From the NCBI RefSeq assembly GCF_000166395.1, contig NC_014655.1:2852001-2916000 (forward strand): a DNA stretch of 64,000 nt, given 5' to 3'. The DNA is from Leadbetterella byssophila DSM 17132 (GTDB lineage Bacteria > Bacteroidota > Bacteroidia > Cytophagales > Spirosomataceae). Made by a program: the position numbers and the translations under genes. The notes under the pieces were generated by a model. It did not search any database and was not told the DNA's origin. It saw only the letters and a list, made by a program, of their open reading frames with translations. This document shows, piece after piece, positions 30,442 through 51,781 of the stretch (within the stretch, counting starts at the first letter, position 1; every line of letters begins with the position of its first letter).

Positions 30442-32247
30442 TTAATTTATATAATCTCCACGTAATTCTCTGAATCTTACCCTGGATTGGGCACTAAAGA
30501 CACTGCCAGGATAATCCGTCAAAACCTTTCTATACAGGCTCATAGCCTTCTCTTTATCCTTTAAATTTTCCTCAGTAACTCGTGCCAAAAGATAGAGCGC
30601 ATCATCTGCCAGTATATCCTGATGAAATTCACTTACTAAGATTTCTAGATCCTTTATGGCTTCTTCTATCTTATTCACTTTTAGTAGAGTATTGGCTCTT
30701 AACCAGAGAATTTCATCTGCTAAGGCATGAGATTTATAGTCTTTCCACAAAACACTCAAAGTATCTAAACCTTGTTGATATTTGTTTTGGAATATTAACA
30801 AATCAGCCCTTGAAAAGCGTTCCAGTGCTACCTCTGAAGTATCTAATCCGGTGTTATCTTCAATAAGCAAACTCAGTTGCATAGCATCATTTGAAATCTC
30901 TTTTGAAGTTGCTTTTTTTAATACATCCAAAATATCTCTGGACAGTTCAAATTGACCAGTATAATACTGCAACTTTGCGTTCTTCAGTCGAGCCAATTCA
31001 CCCAAATTATCCTCTTTCTGAGACTTTTCTACTTGCATATACAACAAAGTAGACTCCCAGGGTTCATCCCTAAGTAAGTAGATATCACCCATATCTAACT
31101 TACACTGATCTCTGAACTTAGGATTTCCATGAACGGTATTAACCGCTGTCTCTAAAGTAGATACGGCCTCTGTATAATCATGTAAATAAAAAGCTTGCAG
31201 TAAAGCCATGTTTCGCATGGCCTCAGAAGTTTTAATATTATGGCCTAGTTCCTGTATCATTTTCTGATACTGCGCTATTAAATCCCGGATGGCTTCTTCT
31301 TCAATGGGAAAAGTAGTTTTCACTAATTCCTCTTTGCTTTTTATCATCCAAGTACGGGCATAAGGATATAGATCTGAATCGGGATACTCGTCCATAATAT
31401 ACTGATACATTCGCGCTGCGCTCTTATAATCCTTAGAAATGTAACTCTGGTAGGCCAACTCAAAGATCTTCGCTCCACCCAGGTTTAAACGCTTATCCAT
31501 GGCTCTCGCCTGCGTGAACGCTCTAGGGAAATCCCCTTTTTGTGCAAACCACCAAACCAAAAGATCCGTATAGAAGGTCTCATTAGGTTCATTCTGGATC
31601 TTTTGAAAAAGTAAATCCTCTATATATTTAATTTCTTCTTCCGTCACAAAGGAATCCTGTATTGCCGACTTTACATAATCCGGATTATTTTGCCTCTTGC
31701 CAAATCCCATGGCTTCCTCCACCATTTTATCTTTCTGATTTAAGACATTGTAGGTTCTGGCAAGTACATTATCGTACTTAAACGGTATTTTGGATACTTC
31801 TCTATCTTTAAGAATTAGTTTTACTATCCATTCCAATTTCTGATTACGATAGAAGAAATTATATACCTCGAAAAACTTATTATCTGTACCCGCTGCTTGC
31901 TCTATAATCTTTTCAAACTCTTTTGCGGCCAAATCCTTTTTTCCACTAGCCTCATACACCTCTGCTAAATCTGCCTGGTAAGTGAGAGTAGTTCCGAATC
32001 TGCTTACTTGTTGTTTAATGAACCGTTCCGCAGAAGTAAAGTCACGCAACTTCATCAAAGTGGCTACATATTCATTATGTATCAAGTTGGCATACTTCTT
32101 ATCCTCCGATAATTTTTTATAAATCTCAGCAGCTTTCTCATATTCCCCCTGTGAGAAATACGCGTAGGCCATCTCCACCTCCTGCCCCTTGCAAAAACCA
32201 AGCGACAACAAGATCAATAAAAAACTATACACTATAGACCTGCACAT
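30442..32247 (-). CDS. Exported tetratricopeptide-repeat protein
   Basis: A 601-aa protein with an N-terminal signal (MCRSIVYSFLLILLSLGFCKG; Cys19 might be lipidated, but the lipobox is imperfect). TPR units are visible from the N-terminus (AYAYFSQGEYEKAAEIYKKL) to the C-terminus (DKEKAMSLYRKVLTDYPGS). This is probably a periplasmic scaffold, and similar long TPR proteins accompany envelope assembly systems. No partner is encoded beside it. It is the last gene before the candidate origin and points away from it. Confidence 0.8.
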   Translation of the reverse strand: MCRSIVYSFLLILLSLGFCKGQEVEMAYAYFSQGEYEKAAEIYKKLSEDKKYANLIHNEYVATLMKLRDFTSAERFIKQQVSRFGTTLTYQADLAEVYEASGKKDLAAKEFEKIIEQAAGTDNKFFEVYNFFYRNQKLEWIVKLILKDREVSKIPFKYDNVLARTYNVLNQKDKMVEEAMGFGKRQNNPDYVKSAIQDSFVTEEEIKYIEDLLFQKIQNEPNETFYTDLLVWWFAQKGDFPRAFTQARAMDKRLNLGGAKIFELAYQSYISKDYKSAARMYQYIMDEYPDSDLYPYARTWMIKSKEELVKTTFPIEEEAIRDLIAQYQKMIQELGHNIKTSEAMRNMALLQAFYLHDYTEAVSTLETAVNTVHGNPKFRDQCKLDMGDIYLLRDEPWESTLLYMQVEKSQKEDNLGELARLKNAKLQYYTGQFELSRDILDVLKKATSKEISNDAMQLSLLIEDNTGLDTSEVALERFSRADLLIFQNKYQQGLDTLSVLWKDYKSHALADEILWLRANTLLKVNKIEEAIKDLEILVSEFHQDILADDALYLLARVTEENLKDKEKAMSLYRKVLTDYPGSVFSAQSRVRFRELRGDYIN

Positions 32248-32607
32248 GCTAATAAATATAAAATCTTATTTAATTAATTCTTTTTTCTATTATCTTCTAT
32301 TCCTGTGAATTTGTGGAATAGTTTATTTGTATTTGTGGATTGTGGGTAATTGACTTCTAATGTTTATAACTTGAAACGATATTAACATTTAATTGTTTGA
32401 TTTTCAATTCTTGATCCGTTTATGTTGATTTCTTATCCGTACTCCTTCCACAGGGTGGTGGATAGAGGATAAATCCTGGGTAACTTAGATGTTTATTCCA
32501 CTTTATCCCCCATCCTGTTTCTTTCCTTTTATTAAAATAGAGTTAATGTTTATTACTTCCATTTTATCCTTGCTTTTGCACAGACTTATCACAGGGTTTT
32601 CCACATT
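32248..32607. other. Candidate chromosomal replication origin (oriC)
   Basis: This 360-bp spacer has no gene. Nonamers within one or two mismatches of the DnaA box TTATCCACA or its complement lie at 32312-32320, 32334-32342, 32341-32349 (one mismatch), 32433-32441, 32457-32465, 32464-32472, 32503-32511 and 32597-32605 (TTTTCCACA, one mismatch). An A/T-only-like tract at 32251-32300 could be the unwinding element. Hand counts show plus-strand C above G on the left (31921-31980: 19 C, 8 G) and the reverse on the right (37981-38040: 3 C, 12 G). mnmG and two parS sites lie within 4 kb. dnaA is not in the window. Confidence 0.6.
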
Positions 32608-34191
32608 CTATTCTATTTTTAGATTCCTAAATTCATAGTTCGCTCTAATTCGTATAGGCTCCTTAGTACTAAGTACTTCTTCAGGTAGTTTTCTTAATTC
32701 CAGATTTCCCGGATCCCAAATACCATTTTTATTATCATCGAATACAATAGTGATTTGGTATGAGCCTGGTACTATTTTATCAAAAATGAATCTGTCTGTA
32801 AAGTTTATCTGTCGGATTATTTTTGTCCGGTTTTCGTCTTGTAACAGGGCTATTTTAGGCCTCTCCTTGTCTTGAACCTCTCCCTCCACTAAACCTAGCT
32901 GATCGTCCTTTAAAAGGGGGTTTTTAAGTACTACAACCGTATTGGTGTCTCCTTGGTAATTTTCTAGTATGTTTGATGGTATATGTATTTCAATATCTTT
33001 CGCATTAACCTTAGGGATCTCTATAGTAAAATGTTGATTATCAATTATATATATATTGTTTACTGCAATCTCATTAGTATCTGCTTTCAATTGAATCTTT
33101 TCCAAATCTAATCTCTTTAAGGGTTGATCTACTGAAAATTCATACTTCATATCGGTGGTTACTTCCTGTTGATTTTTGATAGAGGAAAGTAGGCTTATAG
33201 TGCCTATTTTCTTTTTTCTATTGCTTTCTGGTTTGAAGTATATTTTCTGTTGCAGTGTATCGGAAATCAATAGGGAATCCTGTAATACTATTTTTGCTTT
33301 AATACTGTCTTGAATTTCCTTCTCTAACCTAAAGAACTTTATTTCTGGCCCTTTTGCAAACATGGAGGTTTTTAAACTATCCTCTTTATTTTCAAAGATT
33401 ATACTTGCGCGCAGCACTGGTTTTTCTAATTGTAAAACCATTTCATTTTCGCGTACTATAGTTCTTTTAATTTTATTTTTAGTGTGATTCGCTCTATATA
33501 TTTCTATTGAAGACAAGTTTAAATTTTGGTTGACATGTATACTGTCTGGCAAAAATCCTACTTGTTCCTCTTTTTGATCGAATCGGAGATTATTGTTTTT
33601 ATCTGTAAATGCTAAAAGGAAATATTTATCGCTTTTGATGTTTTCAAAGGTATAGTTTCCGGAGGAATCCGTTTTAATAAAGTATAATGGTTTCTTTTTA
33701 CCAAAGTCTAGAGTGTCATAAGGGTATAGCCCTACAGTAACATCTAGTTTTTCTTCCTTAGTGAATAAGTCTTTTATATTACCTGATACTTGTAAGGAAT
33801 CTATTTCTGATCCAGTGCTAATAACTAATTTTAGGTTTTTTGCTGGATTTTTTTCTGTTAGATCCGTTATTCCATTTCTGAAATTTAGGGTGTAGGTTGT
33901 ATTCTCGGCAAGCTCTTTGTCGAATTTGATGATTACCTCCTTGTTCTTTACCTTAACTTCATAGGGTTGACCGGGATCTGGTACTATCACTAATTCACTG
34001 TTTAATTTACTAGCATCAATTAGTTCATTGAAGCTTAATTTAAATTCTTTTCCTTTATAGTTTTTAGTTTTGTTTTCCGGATAAGAGCTTACTAATTCGG
34101 GTGGAGTTTTATCTGGCTCTCCTCCTGTGGGTGCAATGATTTGAGCACAGGAGGAAAGCAGTATACAAGCTAAATATATTATTTTCTTCAT
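32608..34191 (-). CDS. Lipoprotein with Ig-like (SbsA/Big_5-type) domain
   Basis: A 527-aa lipoprotein (lipobox LLSSC, Cys15). Residues about 28-130 match a bacterial Ig-like SbsA domain (TPPELVSSYPENKTKN, then YTLNFRNGITD). Further beta-rich repeats of the prealbumin/CarboxypepD type follow (DSSGNYTFENIKSDKYFLLAF; PGSYQITIVFDDNKNGIWDP). It is probably surface- or periplasm-exposed at the outer membrane; the function is unknown. Its ATG overlaps the mnmG stop by 4 bp (ATGA), so it is translated with mnmG. Confidence 0.8.
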   Translation of the reverse strand: MKKIIYLACILLSSCAQIIAPTGGEPDKTPPELVSSYPENKTKNYKGKEFKLSFNELIDASKLNSELVIVPDPGQPYEVKVKNKEVIIKFDKELAENTTYTLNFRNGITDLTEKNPAKNLKLVISTGSEIDSLQVSGNIKDLFTKEEKLDVTVGLYPYDTLDFGKKKPLYFIKTDSSGNYTFENIKSDKYFLLAFTDKNNNLRFDQKEEQVGFLPDSIHVNQNLNLSSIEIYRANHTKNKIKRTIVRENEMVLQLEKPVLRASIIFENKEDSLKTSMFAKGPEIKFFRLEKEIQDSIKAKIVLQDSLLISDTLQQKIYFKPESNRKKKIGTISLLSSIKNQQEVTTDMKYEFSVDQPLKRLDLEKIQLKADTNEIAVNNIYIIDNQHFTIEIPKVNAKDIEIHIPSNILENYQGDTNTVVVLKNPLLKDDQLGLVEGEVQDKERPKIALLQDENRTKIIRQINFTDRFIFDKIVPGSYQITIVFDDNKNGIWDPGNLELRKLPEEVLSTKEPIRIRANYEFRNLKIE

Positions 34192-36050
34192 CTTCCTAAA
34201 TATAGCATAAGTACTGAAATGTCTGCTGGAGATACCCCGCTGATTCTAGAGGCTTGTCCGAGGTTCATCGGTTTTGCTGCAGTTAATTTTTGTCTTGCCT
34301 CTATAGAAAGGGATTTTAAAGCCATATAGTCGAATTCCGTGTTTAACTTTACTTCGTCTAGTTTGGCTATTTTTTCTGCCATTAGTAGTTCCTTTTCTAT
34401 ATATTTCTCATACTTAATTTTTATCTCAGCTTGTTCTTTTTGTTCCTTAGTATAAGTATTGGTTATTTCCTGAACTAGTACATTTCCTTCTTCTAGTTCC
34501 TTTATACCTATTTCAGGTCTTTTTATTAGAGAACTTATTGTACTTTTTTCCCTTAATGGAGATGAATTAATTTTTGTTAAGTACGGATTTATCTCTTCAG
34601 GGCTCAATTTTGTGGTTTCTAACTTATGTATTAATTCTTCTGAATTCTTTATTTTTTCCTCTACCCTATCCAGTCTTTCTTTATTTGCTAAGCCTATTTC
34701 ATATCCTTTTTTTGTTAAGCGGATATCGGCGTTATCTTGTCTTAGTATGGTTCTGAATTCCGCTCGGGAAGTGAACATACGGTACGGCTCATCTGTGCCT
34801 TTATTCACCAAGTCATCTATTAGAACGCCTATGTATGCCTCGTCTCTTTTTAGGATAAATGCTGATAATTCATGGGCTTTTCTATGTGCATTTATACCCG
34901 CTATTAATCCTTGTGCCCCTGCTTCTTCATAGCCTGTAGTGCCGTTGATTTGTCCAGCGAAGAAAAGGTTTTCTACTCTCTGGGTTTCTAAAGTAAGTTT
35001 TAATTGGGTAGGTGGGAAATAGTCGTATTCTATGGCATATCCTGGACGTAGTAGTTTTACGTTTTCGAAACCAGGTATTTTTCTGATGGCTTTATATTGT
35101 ATATCTTCCGGTAGTGAGGTAGAGAATCCATTTACATACATCTCTATGGTTGTTCTACCTTCCGGTTCTAAGAAGATTTGGTGGCTATCTTTTTCTGCAA
35201 ATCTGTTGATTTTGTCTTCTACAGATGGGCAGTACCTTGGTCCTAGTCCTTTAATTCTACCGTTAAACATCGGTGATTTATCGAATCCTTTTCTTAATTC
35301 TTCATGGACGGCTAGGTTGGTATAGCTGATCCAACAAGAATTTTGTTTCTCTAGTTTTGGAGTATCTGTATATGAGAATTTTTCTGGATTCTCATCTCCT
35401 AGTTGCTCTTGCATTGCTTCGTAGTTGATGGTCCTTCCATCTACTCGAGGTGGTGTTCCCGTTTTCATTCTTCCGGATTCAAATCCTAATGAAACTAGTT
35501 TCTCCGTTATTCCAAATGCTGCGGATTCCCCGGTCCTTCCTCCCCCAAAGTTCTTTTCTCCTATATGTATTTTTCCATTTAGGAATGTGCCGTTAGTTAG
35601 TACAACTGTTTTTGCATGTATTTCTAGTCCGAGTGATGTTTTGACTCCATATACTATATTGTCTTTTACCAGGATGTCAGTTACCATTTCTTGCCAGAAG
35701 GATACTTTTGGATTTCTTTCCAGTTTATCTCTCCAGTTTAATGCAAATTCCATTCTGTCTGATTGACACCTTGGCGACCACATGGCTGGACCCTTTGATC
35801 TATTTAACATGCGGAATTGGATCATTGTTTCGTCTGAAACAATTCCTGACATCCCTCCTAGCGCGTCGATTTCTCGTACTATTTGCCCTTTTGCAACCCC
35901 TCCCATAGCAGGATTGCAAGACATCTGTGCTATGGTCTGTAAGTTCATGGTGATTAATAGAACTTCTGATCCCATAGTTGCAGCTGCGTGTGCAGCTTCA
36001 CATCCTGCGTGGCCTGCTCCTACCACGATAACATCATATTTACTAAACAT
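34188..36050 (-). CDS. mnmG: tRNA uridine-5-carboxymethylaminomethyl modification enzyme MnmG (GidA)
   Basis: A 620-aa FAD enzyme. With MnmE it builds the cmnm5 group at the tRNA wobble uridine. The FAD dinucleotide fold is at the start (DVIVVGAGHAGCEAA, 5-19). The GidA signatures MSCNPAMGGVAKGQIVREID and MLNRSKGPAMWSPR lie at about 43-120, and GQINGTTGYEEAGAQGL near 370. The C-terminal helical domain ends SPADISVLMLYLG. The length is normal. mnmG is a classic oriC neighbour in bacteria, and here it lies between the candidate oriC and twin parS sites. Confidence 0.98.
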   Translation of the reverse strand: MFSKYDVIVVGAGHAGCEAAHAAATMGSEVLLITMNLQTIAQMSCNPAMGGVAKGQIVREIDALGGMSGIVSDETMIQFRMLNRSKGPAMWSPRCQSDRMEFALNWRDKLERNPKVSFWQEMVTDILVKDNIVYGVKTSLGLEIHAKTVVLTNGTFLNGKIHIGEKNFGGGRTGESAAFGITEKLVSLGFESGRMKTGTPPRVDGRTINYEAMQEQLGDENPEKFSYTDTPKLEKQNSCWISYTNLAVHEELRKGFDKSPMFNGRIKGLGPRYCPSVEDKINRFAEKDSHQIFLEPEGRTTIEMYVNGFSTSLPEDIQYKAIRKIPGFENVKLLRPGYAIEYDYFPPTQLKLTLETQRVENLFFAGQINGTTGYEEAGAQGLIAGINAHRKAHELSAFILKRDEAYIGVLIDDLVNKGTDEPYRMFTSRAEFRTILRQDNADIRLTKKGYEIGLANKERLDRVEEKIKNSEELIHKLETTKLSPEEINPYLTKINSSPLREKSTISSLIKRPEIGIKELEEGNVLVQEITNTYTKEQKEQAEIKIKYEKYIEKELLMAEKIAKLDEVKLNTEFDYMALKSLSIEARQKLTAAKPMNLGQASRISGVSPADISVLMLYLGR

Positions 36051-36061
36051 ACTTCCTTTGG

Positions 36062-36093
36062 TGTTTCACGTGAAACATGTTTCACGTGAAACT
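36062..36093. other. Two abutting parS centromere sites
   Basis: TGTTTCACGTGAAACA (36062-36077) is a perfect match to the consensus ParB-binding parS 16-mer. It is followed at once by a second copy, TGTTTCACGTGAAACT (36078-36093), with one end mismatch. Together 36063-36092 form a 30-bp perfect palindrome. They occupy the 47-nt gap between mnmG and the DUF4175 gene. parS sites normally cluster near oriC. parA and parB are not in the window. Confidence 0.9.
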
Positions 36094-36097
36094 TTTT

Positions 36098-39000
36098 TTA
36101 ATTTATCTTCTTGAAATAATTTTCTGTCTGGTTCTTATAGAATGGTGTGTAATTAGGGGGTGTGGTTCTCAATAATTCCACTTGTTTTTCTTTTTCTTTT
36201 TTGAATTTTTCTAGATCTGGTGGTGTGGATCTTTGAATCTTTTGTGCTGTTTTAGCTTGGCGATTTGGATCAAGTTCTTGCTCTTTTATTGCTTTGTCTG
36301 CTTCTAGTAGTCTTGTTTCAATTAACTTTTGTCTTCTTTTTAATTCTGGGGTGATCTTTTTGTTGACAAGATCCTCCTCTGATTTCTCCATTTCTTTTTG
36401 AAGATTTTTGAGTTCGTCTCCAAGTTTTTTGCCCACTTCGGTTCCGTTTAGTTTGTCTTGCATTTCTTGAAGTTCCTTTCTTAGTTTAGCTTGTTCATTA
36501 ACTAGTTTAGCTATTTCTTCAGAAATTTCTCTTTGTGTTTTACCTTCGGATCCAATACCTTCCATCCTTTGGTTAATCATTTGTTGTTTCTTTCCGAAAT
36601 CCCCTGGGCTTGATCCATTTTGTTTTCCTTTACCGGATCCTGGAGTTGCCATTTGTGATTGCATCTGTTTGAAAACATCACTTAATAATAAAGCTAAATT
36701 ATTCATAGAGGTCATGCTTGACTGCTGACGCATGGATGCCTGAGGTAATTTTCTCTCGCGGATCAGTTTTACAGATTCATCAATGTGGTTCTTCATTGCC
36801 GTCACTTCTTTTGTGACTGTAGCTTCTAGTTGCATTACTCTACTCGCTAGTGTGAATAAGGAGTCTTCAATTATTTTTGCGTCATTCGCTATGTTTAATT
36901 GTTCCTGTGATAATTGAACAAACCTTGGATCAGATACAGAAAGTGTTCTAAATGTTTTCATGATTCTTTCCTGATCGTGCGAGACCTTGATTAGATTTTC
37001 GAGAATTTCTCTCATGGCATTAAGGTCTACTTGGGCTTGTTGCATTTCAGCCGACTGCATTTGTTGCTCCATCTCCTCTGCCATCTGTTTCATTTTTTTG
37101 GCAGCATTCTTCTGTGCTTTGGATGCAGCATCTTTATTTTGTTGTGATAGTTCCTTTTTAGCCTGCTTCTGATCTTCCGATATTTCTGATTGCTTATCGT
37201 CCATCGGGTCGAAGGACTTATTTAACTCATTGCTTCTATTCTCTATATCCTCCAGCTTCTTTTTGATATCCTCAAACTTTTGATTGATCTTTTCTTGATC
37301 TTGTGGATTTGCATCTGCCTCACTAAGTTTCTCTTGCTCTTCAGCAAGTTCTTTTAATTCATTAGAGGTTTCCTCTATCTTTTGTTTCCTTTGTAGTTCT
37401 TGGAATAACTTCAATGTTCTATCTAGTTCTTTATCCAGGTTTCTCTGGTTCTTATTGAATTTTTCCAATTGGTCTAGTGATTTCTCATCTAGACTCTTTT
37501 CCATCATTTTCTTTAGTTCTTCTAATACTTTGGAGTCTTTACTTTCCATTAACTCGTTTAACATCTTCTGGATCATTTCCATTTTTTGTTGAAGCTGTGG
37601 ACTTTGTTGTTCAAATCTGCTTTGCTTCTCCAATAATTCCTGAAGTTGGTTTTTTAGATCTTGAATCTCCTTATTTAATTCCTCTTTCTTTTGAAGTAGG
37701 CGATCTAGGTCTTTTTTATCCTGAAAATCGAGTTGTTTCTTTTTCTTTAATTCATTCTCTATGGTATTGAGGTCCTTTTTGAAATCACGCGATTTTTTTA
37801 CTAATTCATCAAATTGGTTTTCTGCTTTATTCACCTGGTTTTCCACATCCTGTGAATATTCTTGATCCGTGGGCATGAGGTAACGTAGCGTACTGGTTTT
37901 TGTGGATTTTGGTCCCTTCACCCCATCATTGTCCGTAACCATCAAATAATATTCCAATTGGTCATTTCTTGATAATCCCAATTCTTGTAAATCTAATTGG
38001 TAAAAGAAAGTTTGTGACAAAGAAGATTTGTTAAAAGGTATTTGTATGGATTTGAATTGTGGATTATTTGAATTTCTATAAAATAACTGAAGCTTAGTAA
38101 TACCGTAATCGTCAGATATGGTCCCTCCTATTCCTATGTATTGATATAAGGCGGTATCTGCCATTTGTTCAAAAGTGATCTGTGGATATCTATCGGGGAT
38201 AACGTTGATAAAGTAGTGAATAGGATCTGCATTCTCACTGTGTTCATTGTGTAATTGGATTTCGTATGCGGTGCTTTTGGAAATTTTTCGCTGATAGTTG
38301 AAGTCTCGAAAAATGCCTTTATCCACATTAACCACATCGCTACTGTCGAAAACTATTTCAAATTTATCTGCAGCATCCGTCTTAAAGGACCAGCGTACTA
38401 TAGTACCTTCCGGGATGATTAAGTTACCCACATTATCAAAATTTTCTGGGGATTTCCCTAAATATGCTGGGTACTTTAAAGAAACATTGAATGATAATAA
38501 TTGTGGTCTACCTACTAGGTCAATCTTATATGAATCTGAAGTATATCCTGCTGCTTCAAAATGAAAAGGTGTGGGTTCTTGAATATGATTAAAGGTATGG
38601 CTATAATTAATACCATCCTCTGTTAACATTTTATATCTTCTTCCTTGAGCTAGAATAAAAACTTCATCAGGTAAAGTTTCTCCCTGCATTTTTACGTGTA
38701 GGGTGAAATCTTCATGCTTGTAAGCCTGTAGTTTTTCATTTTCTATATAGAAAGTAAAGGGAGCCGGGTCTGCAAAAGTCTTGGTGAACTTTACAATTCT
38801 TTCTGTACTATGATAAAATTTAGGTAAGGCTAAAGCTATACACAGAGCGATGGCAACTGGCGGTAATACAAATTTGAGATACTTACGATTATCCCGAAAC
38901 TGGATAGCATCCGCAAATTTAATCCATTTTAGCTCTTCGGTTCTTTGCGCTATACTAGCCTCCAATAAAGAATTATCCACAGAATTTACCTGTGCTAACT

Positions 39001-39340
39001 GTATAGTGTTAATAAGTTTATCCTTAATCTCTGGAAAGTATCTCCCTATTTGAATTGCAGCCTCTTCGTTACTTAATTTGTTGTCTGTATTAAATAGATA
39101 ATATAAGGGTTTCAGGATAAATTGTGCCAAAGTATAAGCAGATGCCGCAATGTATATGACAAATAGTATTAGTCGTGGATAAGTGCCAAATCTTCCGATG
39201 AATTCCAGAAAATTAATTAACAAAAACAAACCTAATAGCAAAGCCGTACTGATTAATAGGCCTTTAATTAGCTGGTTTTTGTATAATTTTTTCTTATACT
39301 CCCCTATTTTGTCTATCGTATTTTGCATTGCGGCATTCAT
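36098..39340 (-). CDS. DUF4175 family membrane protein with long coiled coil
   Basis: A 1080-aa protein. Two hydrophobic segments are near 27-45 and 57-80 and one is near 155-175. An extracytoplasmic beta-rich region (about 185-500) follows, then a very long charged Lys/Glu/Gln coiled coil (about 510-1040; KKKQLDFQDKKDLDRLLQKK is representative). This matches the Bacteroidota DUF4175 family, whose function is unknown. The ATG at 39338-39340 lies 5 nt after the xth stop. A second Met four codons in is possible. Its 3' end is 4 bp from the twin parS. Confidence 0.85.
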   Translation of the reverse strand: MNAAMQNTIDKIGEYKKKLYKNQLIKGLLISTALLLGLFLLINFLEFIGRFGTYPRLILFVIYIAASAYTLAQFILKPLYYLFNTDNKLSNEEAAIQIGRYFPEIKDKLINTIQLAQVNSVDNSLLEASIAQRTEELKWIKFADAIQFRDNRKYLKFVLPPVAIALCIALALPKFYHSTERIVKFTKTFADPAPFTFYIENEKLQAYKHEDFTLHVKMQGETLPDEVFILAQGRRYKMLTEDGINYSHTFNHIQEPTPFHFEAAGYTSDSYKIDLVGRPQLLSFNVSLKYPAYLGKSPENFDNVGNLIIPEGTIVRWSFKTDAADKFEIVFDSSDVVNVDKGIFRDFNYQRKISKSTAYEIQLHNEHSENADPIHYFINVIPDRYPQITFEQMADTALYQYIGIGGTISDDYGITKLQLFYRNSNNPQFKSIQIPFNKSSLSQTFFYQLDLQELGLSRNDQLEYYLMVTDNDGVKGPKSTKTSTLRYLMPTDQEYSQDVENQVNKAENQFDELVKKSRDFKKDLNTIENELKKKKQLDFQDKKDLDRLLQKKEELNKEIQDLKNQLQELLEKQSRFEQQSPQLQQKMEMIQKMLNELMESKDSKVLEELKKMMEKSLDEKSLDQLEKFNKNQRNLDKELDRTLKLFQELQRKQKIEETSNELKELAEEQEKLSEADANPQDQEKINQKFEDIKKKLEDIENRSNELNKSFDPMDDKQSEISEDQKQAKKELSQQNKDAASKAQKNAAKKMKQMAEEMEQQMQSAEMQQAQVDLNAMREILENLIKVSHDQERIMKTFRTLSVSDPRFVQLSQEQLNIANDAKIIEDSLFTLASRVMQLEATVTKEVTAMKNHIDESVKLIRERKLPQASMRQQSSMTSMNNLALLLSDVFKQMQSQMATPGSGKGKQNGSSPGDFGKKQQMINQRMEGIGSEGKTQREISEEIAKLVNEQAKLRKELQEMQDKLNGTEVGKKLGDELKNLQKEMEKSEEDLVNKKITPELKRRQKLIETRLLEADKAIKEQELDPNRQAKTAQKIQRSTPPDLEKFKKEKEKQVELLRTTPPNYTPFYKNQTENYFKKIN

Positions 39341-49352: not shown

Positions 49353-51781
49353 TTACTTAGTGTATAATTTAATTTAACAGAGAAACTTCTACCCGGTTTT
49401 TGAACACCGAAGTTGTCATATATTTCAGCATTTAGAATATTCTTTGCATCCAAACTGGCTACGAATTTTTGGTTCGGAAATCTGTAGGAGAGTCCCAGAT
49501 CATGGTAAAACTGGGTAGGTGTAGTAAACCATTCAGAATCCATCCAAACCGTATTAAATGGTGCCACATAACCCGTACTATAGTAGATGGTTAAGTACGC
49601 TTTTTTCATAAAAAGATCTTTCCATCTGTACTGCACACTTCCGTTCATGGTGAAGAAAGGTTCGTTAGGAAGTTGACGGTTATAAAGGTCATGTGGCCTT
49701 CCTTTCTCGTCGTATTTTAACTTAAAAAGAGAGTTGAATTTTGAAAAATTGAACAAAGCGTGGAGCTTATTATCATAGGCGTATATAACTTCACCTTCAA
49801 AGCCCTTTGACTGCGTTTTTTGAAGGTTAGTGTATCGTGTAACTTCAATGTCTCCATCACTTTCTCTACCCGGAATAATGGCGTCTTGTACAGCCTGAAG
49901 GGTGATTTTATTGAAACCATTTCTCCAGAAGGTGTTGGCGTATAAGGTTAGTTTATGTTTTCCCTTGTCCCAAGAGCCGTATCGGAATCCTAGGTTATAA
50001 TTGATATTCTTTTCTCCTATTAGGCCGGGGTTATCAAGAATGTTGTTTTCAAAATCCCCATAGAGCTGGCTTTCTGTAGGCATTATATAGGAATTCTCAG
50101 TAGAGCTGATAAGGTTTAGAAGCGGGATGATTTCGTAAGATATAGTAGCGGCGTAACCTTTATTTCTATTGATGCTTTTGTTTTGAACTCTGTTTATTTT
50201 ATCATTTTCAATAACAGGTTTCGTTTGAATGGTTCTGTTAGTGGTGTATTTGCCTAAAACATTCGTTCTAAGTTTGTTTTGGAAGAACTGAGCCTCATAA
50301 TTTAAAGCGAAGATATTATTCATGACCGCACTGGTAGTCACCAGATCTTTATTTACTGGTTTCAATAGGTCATTGTCATTCCTGTCTGTAGATTCAAGTT
50401 TATGGTTAAAAGAAATACGGTGTCCCCTAACTATAGTGTAGGCTAAATTTGCTCGAGAATTCGTAACCCATCTTTCCACTTCTGTGATGCTTTTGGGACC
50501 TTGTTGGCCCATGCCTGCAACAGGCGGTACGGGTATTTCTACGCCGTTTCTAATGATCATTCTAGGTTTTCCATCCCAGTTGTACACTTGTCCTACCGTA
50601 TCTTGTATATAAGTGGTTCTATAACTACGTACAGCATTGATATTCATAGCCATACCTCGGGTCAGGAAATTGTTTTTATTGTAATTTAAGCTGACTACAT
50701 GAGCTTGATACTCACCAAATCTACCTACATACGGCCTCGCCATAGTAGTACCGTGAGGTATCTCTTTATAGGTATCAGAAACATTATAACCTAGGAAAAA
50801 CTGATCTGCCCATTTAACTCCTGTATATCCCATTTCTACACGAGCTCCAATGGATTCGTATTCGTCATTGAATCTTTTGGCTTTATAGTATCGTTCCAAA
50901 GTCAAATCAGAATGAACATACTTGGAAAACTTGCCCCAAGTGGTGTATGAATTATCTGTATGAAGGTAAAAAGCAGAGCCTCTTAAAGTAAATCCCGACT
51001 TAGTATTCCTATAAGAACCGGATAAATCACTCTGGAAAGTGTTAAAAGATCCATAGGAAACTGCACCAGTGATGTTATTGGATGAGGCATCTTTCTTTAA
51101 AACCACATTTATGGCTCCCCCTACATAGTCACCGGTAAGATGTGCGGGAAGTACTCCTTTATATACTTCTATTCGCTCTATCATGGCCGGAGGAATGTTG
51201 TTCAAGTTGAAAGAAGAACCGTAAGTAGAGATCTCAATTCCGTCTAGAAAGATTCCTACCGCACTGCCTGACATTCCGTTCAGGTTATATTCCACACGGG
51301 AGCCCATTCCCCCATTTTGTCTAACTCTAACTCCTACGGTTCTATCTAATAGCTCATTGGTGGTCACACTTCGTAAGGAAGCTTCTTTCGTCTGAATAAT
51401 GGAGACAGTAAAACCGGCTGTTTCCATCTGTCTCTTCTCTGTTTTCCCTTGAACCTTGACTTCAGATAATTCATTCTCCGTACGCATTTTCACGGAAAAA
51501 TCCTGTTTGTGTTCAGATTTTGATATTTGAACTTTAAAACTGGATGTGTGTATCTCTAAGGATGTAATCTTTAATTGGTATGTGCCAAATGGAACATTCC
51601 TAAATTCAAATCTTCCTTTATCATCACTCATTACAGCAAAAGAAGTACCTTCCAGTACTACTGTTGCAAAGGCTACCGGCTCCTGACGGTCTCCTACTAT
51701 TTTACCACTAAAATGGCTTTGTTGCGCAAATACTTTAGTTGGTAATAGTAAAATGGAAATAATCAGTAGTCGTATATACAT
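49349..51781 (-). CDS. TonB-dependent outer-membrane receptor with CarboxypepD_reg-like N-terminal domain
   Basis: An 810-aa receptor with signal peptide MYIRLLIISILLLPTKVFAQ. Residues about 24-100 form a CarboxypepD_reg-like domain (FSGKIVGDRQEPVAFATVVL). The plug follows at about 120-230 (LLDRTVGVRVRQNGGMGS, IFLDGIEISTYG, IERIEVYKGVLPAHLTGD), then the 22-strand barrel ending SVKLNYTLSK. It lacks a SusD partner and is followed by a DUF4374 lipoprotein, which fits siderophore-type rather than glycan uptake. The promoter region carries paired repeats that could bind an iron regulator. Confidence 0.93.
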   Translation of the reverse strand: MYIRLLIISILLLPTKVFAQQSHFSGKIVGDRQEPVAFATVVLEGTSFAVMSDDKGRFEFRNVPFGTYQLKITSLEIHTSSFKVQISKSEHKQDFSVKMRTENELSEVKVQGKTEKRQMETAGFTVSIIQTKEASLRSVTTNELLDRTVGVRVRQNGGMGSRVEYNLNGMSGSAVGIFLDGIEISTYGSSFNLNNIPPAMIERIEVYKGVLPAHLTGDYVGGAINVVLKKDASSNNITGAVSYGSFNTFQSDLSGSYRNTKSGFTLRGSAFYLHTDNSYTTWGKFSKYVHSDLTLERYYKAKRFNDEYESIGARVEMGYTGVKWADQFFLGYNVSDTYKEIPHGTTMARPYVGRFGEYQAHVVSLNYNKNNFLTRGMAMNINAVRSYRTTYIQDTVGQVYNWDGKPRMIIRNGVEIPVPPVAGMGQQGPKSITEVERWVTNSRANLAYTIVRGHRISFNHKLESTDRNDNDLLKPVNKDLVTTSAVMNNIFALNYEAQFFQNKLRTNVLGKYTTNRTIQTKPVIENDKINRVQNKSINRNKGYAATISYEIIPLLNLISSTENSYIMPTESQLYGDFENNILDNPGLIGEKNINYNLGFRYGSWDKGKHKLTLYANTFWRNGFNKITLQAVQDAIIPGRESDGDIEVTRYTNLQKTQSKGFEGEVIYAYDNKLHALFNFSKFNSLFKLKYDEKGRPHDLYNRQLPNEPFFTMNGSVQYRWKDLFMKKAYLTIYYSTGYVAPFNTVWMDSEWFTTPTQFYHDLGLSYRFPNQKFVASLDAKNILNAEIYDNFGVQKPGRSFSVKLNYTLSK

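Follow-up and report, generated by a model that had tools for sequence, protein, structure and literature searches.

In the Bacteroidetes, chromosomal replication origins (oriC) distant from dnaA are common according to the available text of PMC4755523, which also treats a DoriC entry for Prevotella intermedia in which a DnaA-box locus lies at a skew switch and dnaA lies elsewhere. For Mariniflexile litorale and Algorimicrobium strain KMM 8389T, the accessible parts of two further papers report an oriC predicted at mnmG by Ori-Finder 2022 and matched to the GC skew (PMC11278836, PMC12843772). The position of dnaA did not fit the skew in Mariniflexile, and a figure legend of the same paper labels mnmG as ter, contrary to its own text (PMC11278836). 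The locus described here belongs to Leadbetterella byssophila. The stretch that was analysed, hereafter the window, comprises 64,000 nucleotides (C1:2852001-2916000) within a single contig of 4,059,653 bases; the published genome of strain 4M15T is described, in the part of the paper available, as a single circular chromosome of 4,059,653 bp with a GC content of 40.4% (PMC3072089). The features of the window point to a 360-bp spacer at 32248-32607, between two open reading frames (ORFs) on the minus strand (30442-32247 and 32608-34191), as the predicted oriC, with a probability of about 0.95. Like the two Flavobacteriaceae origins, this candidate is found at mnmG and at a skew switch, to which dnaA, as in Mariniflexile, does not correspond; like the Prevotella locus, it combines DnaA boxes with that switch.

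Strand composition and DnaA boxes at the spacer

The skew of the genome and the ranking of its box clusters were sampled over 549,653 of the 4,059,653 bases. GC skew was calculated in 24 stretches of 16 kb, namely 20 samples and the four quarters of the window. Of the 11 stretches running from 2.90 Mb through 0 to 0.83 Mb, 10 show a positive value, and of the 12 between 1.015 and 2.884 Mb, 11 show a negative one; the 24th stretch straddles the origin. The opposite switch falls at about 0.83-0.96 Mb, where the signs are mixed, as judged from those of fifteen extra stretches that lie at 0.835-1.0 Mb, and the antipode of the spacer is, by arithmetic, 0.854 Mb. In this sampling, the composition switches at the spacer and switches back about half a genome away, as is expected of an oriC. 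Within the window, the cumulative keto-minus-amino (G+T) curve has its minimum at 32263, inside the spacer. The same transition is visible in the third-codon keto (G+T) fraction, read on the + strand in 41 hand-picked ORFs of the window (several small ones were omitted): it is 0.36-0.47 in 21/21 ORFs to the left of the spacer and above 0.47 in 19/20 to its right, whichever strand encodes them. The gene for a TPR-repeat protein (30442..32247, minus strand), which forms the left border, has a fraction of 0.41, and the gene for a Big_5 (Ig-like) protein (32608..34191, minus strand), which forms the right border, one of 0.60. Since both of these genes are on the minus strand, the change between 32247 and 32608 is not an effect of gene strand.

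The spacer is also enriched in sequences resembling the DnaA box. Within it, a near-DnaA box was defined as a nonamer with at most two mismatches to TTATCCACA; elsewhere, a box has at most one mismatch. The spacer holds ten near-DnaA boxes, compared with 1.75 +/- 1.30 in 1000 first-order Markov sequences, none of which reaches ten. Four of them are on the minus strand at 32312..32369, close to the putative unwinding element (32312 TATTCCACA, 32334 CAATCCACA, 32341 TTACCCACA and 32361 TTATAAACA), and the others lie at 32433..32605 (32433, 32457, 32464, 32503, 32574 and 32597, the last being TTTTCCACA). In a comparison of 12,562 windows, each 360 bp long, covering 384 kb of the genome, the spacer ranks first at this threshold, with 10 boxes against 9 in a DUF4175 gene to its right and 8 at the locus L014. 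The cluster thus exceeds chance without containing a perfect box. At one mismatch, two boxes remain, a number reached by 11/1000 Markov sequences. The boxes adjoin a tract at 32248..32300 that is 87% AT and lies directly upstream of the TPR gene, a candidate DNA unwinding element (DUE) as far as its sequence goes; nowhere in the window outside 32244-32304 is there a 53-mer as AT-rich as this one.

The spacer boxes are degenerate in L. byssophila. Ten genomes of the genus were compared (its own and nine others, among them G009, a sister species). In the genus alignment, DnaA boxes occupy common columns, several of the columns of the boxes at 32312..32369 hold DnaA boxes, some of them perfect, and in G003, G006, G002 and G004 the counterpart of the box at 32597 is perfect. 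This alignment also suggests AT richness at the spacer end beside the TPR gene. An altered specificity of DnaA was considered as a simple cause of the weak spacer boxes and rejected: domain IV was found in 9/10 of the genus genomes, that of L. byssophila included, and its GGRDHS/T signature is identical in these nine.

DnaA binding, melting, helicase loading and ParB loading are established behaviours of oriC and ParABS systems. On this general knowledge, DnaA would bind the boxes of the spacer and melt the adjoining AT-rich tract next to TPR, after which the helicase would be loaded and two forks would depart from the origin in opposite directions. ParB would presumably load on a twin parS element about 3.5 kb away, judging from the site alone, so that the new origins could be segregated.

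The contig is numbered from near dnaA, which lies 1.17 Mb from the spacer, and a record that starts there might suggest that replication starts at dnaA and that the feature in the window is something else. This start is a numbering convention, and the skew is positive on either side of dnaA. Moreover, no box cluster occurs in the 17.7 kb before or the 16 kb after it, where 1350 bp contain no more than three boxes (up to one mismatch) and 360 bp no more than six near-DnaA boxes (up to two mismatches), versus ten in the spacer. An origin close to dnaA was rejected on these two grounds, and its probability seems negligible.

What the first-pass annotation had said of the spacer, from the letters of the window, holds. 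It had counted at least eight near-DnaA nonamers in the gene-free 360 bp, where ten are now found, and had placed them beside an AT-rich tract, which proved to be unique in the window. The numbers of C and G that it had counted by hand in four lines (2341-2400, 32161-32220, 34201-34260 and 37981-38040) are all exact, and the left-right skew switch that it deduced despite the minus-strand genes agrees with the keto minimum and with the third-codon values on either strand. Two results that it had named as fatal did not appear: the sampled skew switches in the window, and no stronger box cluster stands beside dnaA within the flanks given above.

The relatives were studied in two sets, 20 fetched mnmG loci and, separately, 80 named Bacteroidota loci, to which the L. 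byssophila locus was added for box density. MnmG is present in 37/39 genomes, that of L. byssophila counted, and its nearest matches among the named loci, about 70% identical, include those of Runella and Dyadobacter (very near records were possibly left out). DnaA boxes with at most one mismatch occur in the corresponding spacer of all 20 fetched relatives. In 19 of these loci they directly precede TPR; in L116, where no TPR match was found, they directly follow Big_5. The layout is kept in 20/20 fetched relatives and, at a stricter count, in 25/80 named loci. Across the 81 mnmG loci, box density peaks 4-5 kb from the start of mnmG, at 2.07/kb versus 0.19-0.51/kb outside 3-7 kb. Keto richness is higher in Big_5 than in TPR in 19/19 loci and higher in mnmG than in TPR in 19/20. 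Finally, in G013, whose genome is one contig, 10 of 11 skew samples agree with a switch located at mnmG (6.63 Mb) and not at dnaA (0.92 Mb). On the other side of the TPR gene, the interval to nadA was considered as a second box site in the eight other genus members, where about 1.0-1.4 kb hold between 1 and 4 boxes; in the seven of these eight that have a long ORF there, the boxes lie mostly within it, and in six one box is near the TPR end of the interval. In L. byssophila and G009 this interval is a short gap with no box.

Several observations weigh against placing the origin in the spacer. No perfect DnaA box lies in 32248-32607, all 45 perfect boxes of the genome having been located, and at one mismatch the DUF4175 gene comes first among the same 12,562 windows, with 4 boxes versus 2 for the spacer. 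Within the window, the cumulative G-C curve is lowest at 51708, outside the spacer, because the raw GC skew is about zero for some 20 kb to the right of the spacer. Among the 24 skew samples, two have a sign contrary to this placement (203001, -0.007; 2639001, +0.041). Among relatives, the G013 sample at 3.8 Mb fails to fit, and the skew samples of G033 show no clear switch at mnmG. In L123, boxes are spread over several kb on both sides, beyond the spacer. A best 1-kb window with at least four boxes exists in 27/80 named loci, its centre being at +3.9 to +6.3 kb in 25 and elsewhere in two; 53/80 have no such window, many of them Flavobacteriaceae or Saprospiraceae, and the nonamer is therefore no universal marker of the place in the phylum. 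In seven loci of the same genus (L107-L113), nadA, on the TPR side, has a keto fraction close to that of mnmG (0.54-0.63), so gene-specific composition may contribute to the local keto test in relatives. Its composition there is that of the other arm, unlike in L. byssophila and G009, perhaps through a rearrangement or gene-specific composition. On balance, the oriC call of the first-pass annotation is sustained by the switch, the boxes and the layout in relatives; it was incomplete, as good boxes are densest in DUF4175, outside the coordinates that it had given.

The parS element and the genes right of the spacer

The right side of the spacer is occupied by three genes, Big_5, mnmG (gidA; 34188..36050, minus strand, third-codon keto fraction 0.67) and a DUF4175 protein gene (36098..39340, minus strand, 0.56). 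Transcription of this block (32608-39340) is directed at the origin, that is, head-on to the fork. Two abutting 16-mers at 36062..36093 lie between the stop of DUF4175 and mnmG and match the 16-bp palindrome TGTTTCACGTGAAACA, which we take to be the parS consensus, at 16/16 (36062-36077) and 15/16 letters (36078-36093). They are the sole place in the genome with at most two mismatches. The control, the same pattern read backward, matches at three places with up to two mismatches and at none with up to one; it is thus the near-exact tandem match that counts and not the number of sites. The mnmG gene and the twin parS named by the first-pass annotation are both recovered, the former with a Pfam GIDA match at E 2.2e-163. 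It had presented the association of both with oriC as established. In 64/80 named Bacteroidota loci, parS-like sites with up to two mismatches, 116 in number, occur no farther than 200 bp from one of the ends of mnmG, where the reversed pattern occurs in 0/80. Away from mnmG, 21 sites were found in 13 loci of the same set (1.47 Mb in total). At up to one mismatch, a parS-like site is found in 17/39 genomes, and it adjoins mnmG in 14 of these 17 (L. byssophila, nine genomes of its genus, G021, G026, G033 and G038) and not in G028, G029 and G035.

The pair could also be regarded as a mere hairpin between two genes, and it does fold as one. This was rejected as the whole explanation: in seven of the nine same-genus genomes, two parS 16-mers are kept 25-26 bp apart, whereas in L. 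byssophila they abut exactly. To judge from their sequences, these spaced 16-mers fit parS better than a hairpin, and it is possible that the element serves as both. The partner proteins are encoded elsewhere: ParB_N matches occur at 0.995 and 2.217 Mb, distant from this near-origin palindrome, beside genes whose translations look ParA-like by eye. Of the ten genus genomes, nine have two ParB matches and G002, which is 77% complete, has one. The parA-parB-like loci are L145 (C1:990001-1000000) and L150 (C1:2212001-2222000); by the same reading of translations, one of them stands beside dnaG-like and gyrB-like genes and the other has a short ParA-like protein of 198 aa and a dapB-like gene nearby.

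The DnaA-box cluster inside the DUF4175 gene

Beyond parS, the DUF4175 gene contains a second cluster at 37839..39182, with eight boxes at 37839, 38058, 38181, 38319 (perfect), 38328, 38424, 38973 (perfect) and 39174. From the 1316 boxes with at most one mismatch in the genome, 0.44 would be expected there; the Poisson probability of at least eight at one preset place is 2e-8, the search not being allowed for. The best 1350-bp window of the gene has 7 boxes, against 4 at the next densest place in the 549,653 bases ranked on a grid, and its two perfect boxes, 654 bp apart, are the closest pair among the 45 of the genome. The sister species G009 keeps four boxes (37839, 38181, 38319 and 38424; 9, 8, 9 and 9 of 9 letters) in a gene in which the third positions of unchanged residues are only 46% identical; four boxes are kept in 3/5000 shuffles. 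Considering its sequence, the cluster may bind DnaA, whether to assist the origin from a distance or to titrate the protein. A role as the melting site is unlikely, since the composition switches at the spacer and the cluster, at 35.3% GC (65% AT), is not distinctly AT-rich; the position of the switch also speaks against DUF4175 as the usual start of the forks.

Three interpretations of these boxes were considered. They could be a by-product of the sequence of the gene, unused by DnaA, a reading to which we give slightly less than an even chance. All eight boxes of the cluster begin at the same codon position and the cluster is restricted to one lineage, and the DNA nearby has an extreme AT skew (-0.39 at 36001-38000, right of the origin, T exceeding A on the + strand). 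Nevertheless, synonymous-codon shuffling, which preserves the protein and its codon usage, leaves far fewer boxes (2.72 +/- 1.36 versus nine in the whole gene; 0/1000 shuffles reach nine), 16 other genes of the window show no excess over their own shuffles (100 each), and four boxes are conserved in G009. Alternatively, the cluster could titrate DnaA or time initiation near oriC, as does datA, a DnaA-titration and timing site to which it would be functionally parallel. The density of boxes without a distinctly AT-rich tract, and their position to the right of the composition switch and so away from the start of the forks, agree with such a role, which we nonetheless consider unlikely. The other possibility is a bipartite origin extending over about 6.9 kb (32248-39182), in which the spacer would keep the DUE and weak boxes and the strong boxes would have arisen in DUF4175, with Big_5, mnmG and parS in between.

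Two box clusters are indeed present, and the enrichment of the second one, its retention in G009 despite the divergence of third positions and its pair of perfect boxes would all suit a bipartite origin. Yet G009 fails to keep five of the gene's nine boxes (four of the eight in the cluster), including the perfect box at 38973, and the perfect box at 38319 carries a mismatch there; the enrichment of the G009 gene itself is modest (4 boxes, equalled in 26/1000 shuffles). In the other eight members of the genus, and in the seven more distant relatives in which the gene was found, it contains one box at most, and among the former only G001 has any of the L. byssophila positions (38181) at one mismatch or less. 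The spacing of at least 5.2 kb also exceeds the maximum of about 2000 bp that the available text of PMC4285127 gives for known bipartite origins, which include a spacer gene, and the second cluster here is itself within a gene. We consider a bipartite origin unlikely, to the same degree as a titration role. It is slightly more doubtful still that, in the lineage of L. byssophila and G009, the half of oriC with strong DnaA binding has been transferred into the DUF4175 coding sequence, past parS and at a distance of over 5 kb from the unwinding element, while the old boxes of the spacer decay. To a specialist, the intragenic cluster may be the only unexpected element of the locus. If this cluster works, part of an origin would be built into a protein-coding gene, and a single gene would provide both a protein and a portion of the origin.

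Relation to described origins

The origin of one type strain would be placed within about 360 bp in a record numbered from near dnaA, and mnmG flanked by parS-like sites, as in 64/80 loci, would offer a simple origin landmark for related draft genomes, which would be useful for estimating replication rates from metagenomes. Among the papers listed by a literature search on DUF4175, oriC, DnaA and Leadbetterella, none contained DUF4175 or Leadbetterella, which does not establish absence from print.

The origin of Leadbetterella is a good but ordinary oriC call, of a kind already in print for the phylum. The Flavobacteriaceae examples come from another order, and the accessible text of both papers mentions neither parS nor an intragenic DnaA-box cluster (PMC11278836, PMC12843772). 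Similarly, gidA and parS are absent from the available text on Prevotella intermedia (PMC4755523). In the Bradyrhizobiaceae, the part of PMC2275245 available describes gidA (mnmG), a skew switch and the palindrome TGTTTCACGTGAAACA together at oriC, as is the case here; they belong to another phylum, and the palindrome was taken there as two DnaA boxes whereas it is regarded here as parS. The bipartite origins of Bacillus subtilis and Helicobacter pylori resemble the present locus in having two DnaA-box clusters with a DUE in only one of them, and differ in that their parts are split by a spacer gene, usually dnaA, within a total of at most about 2000 bp, according to the accessible text (PMC4285127). 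In Leadbetterella, the second cluster lies within a coding sequence more than 5 kb away.

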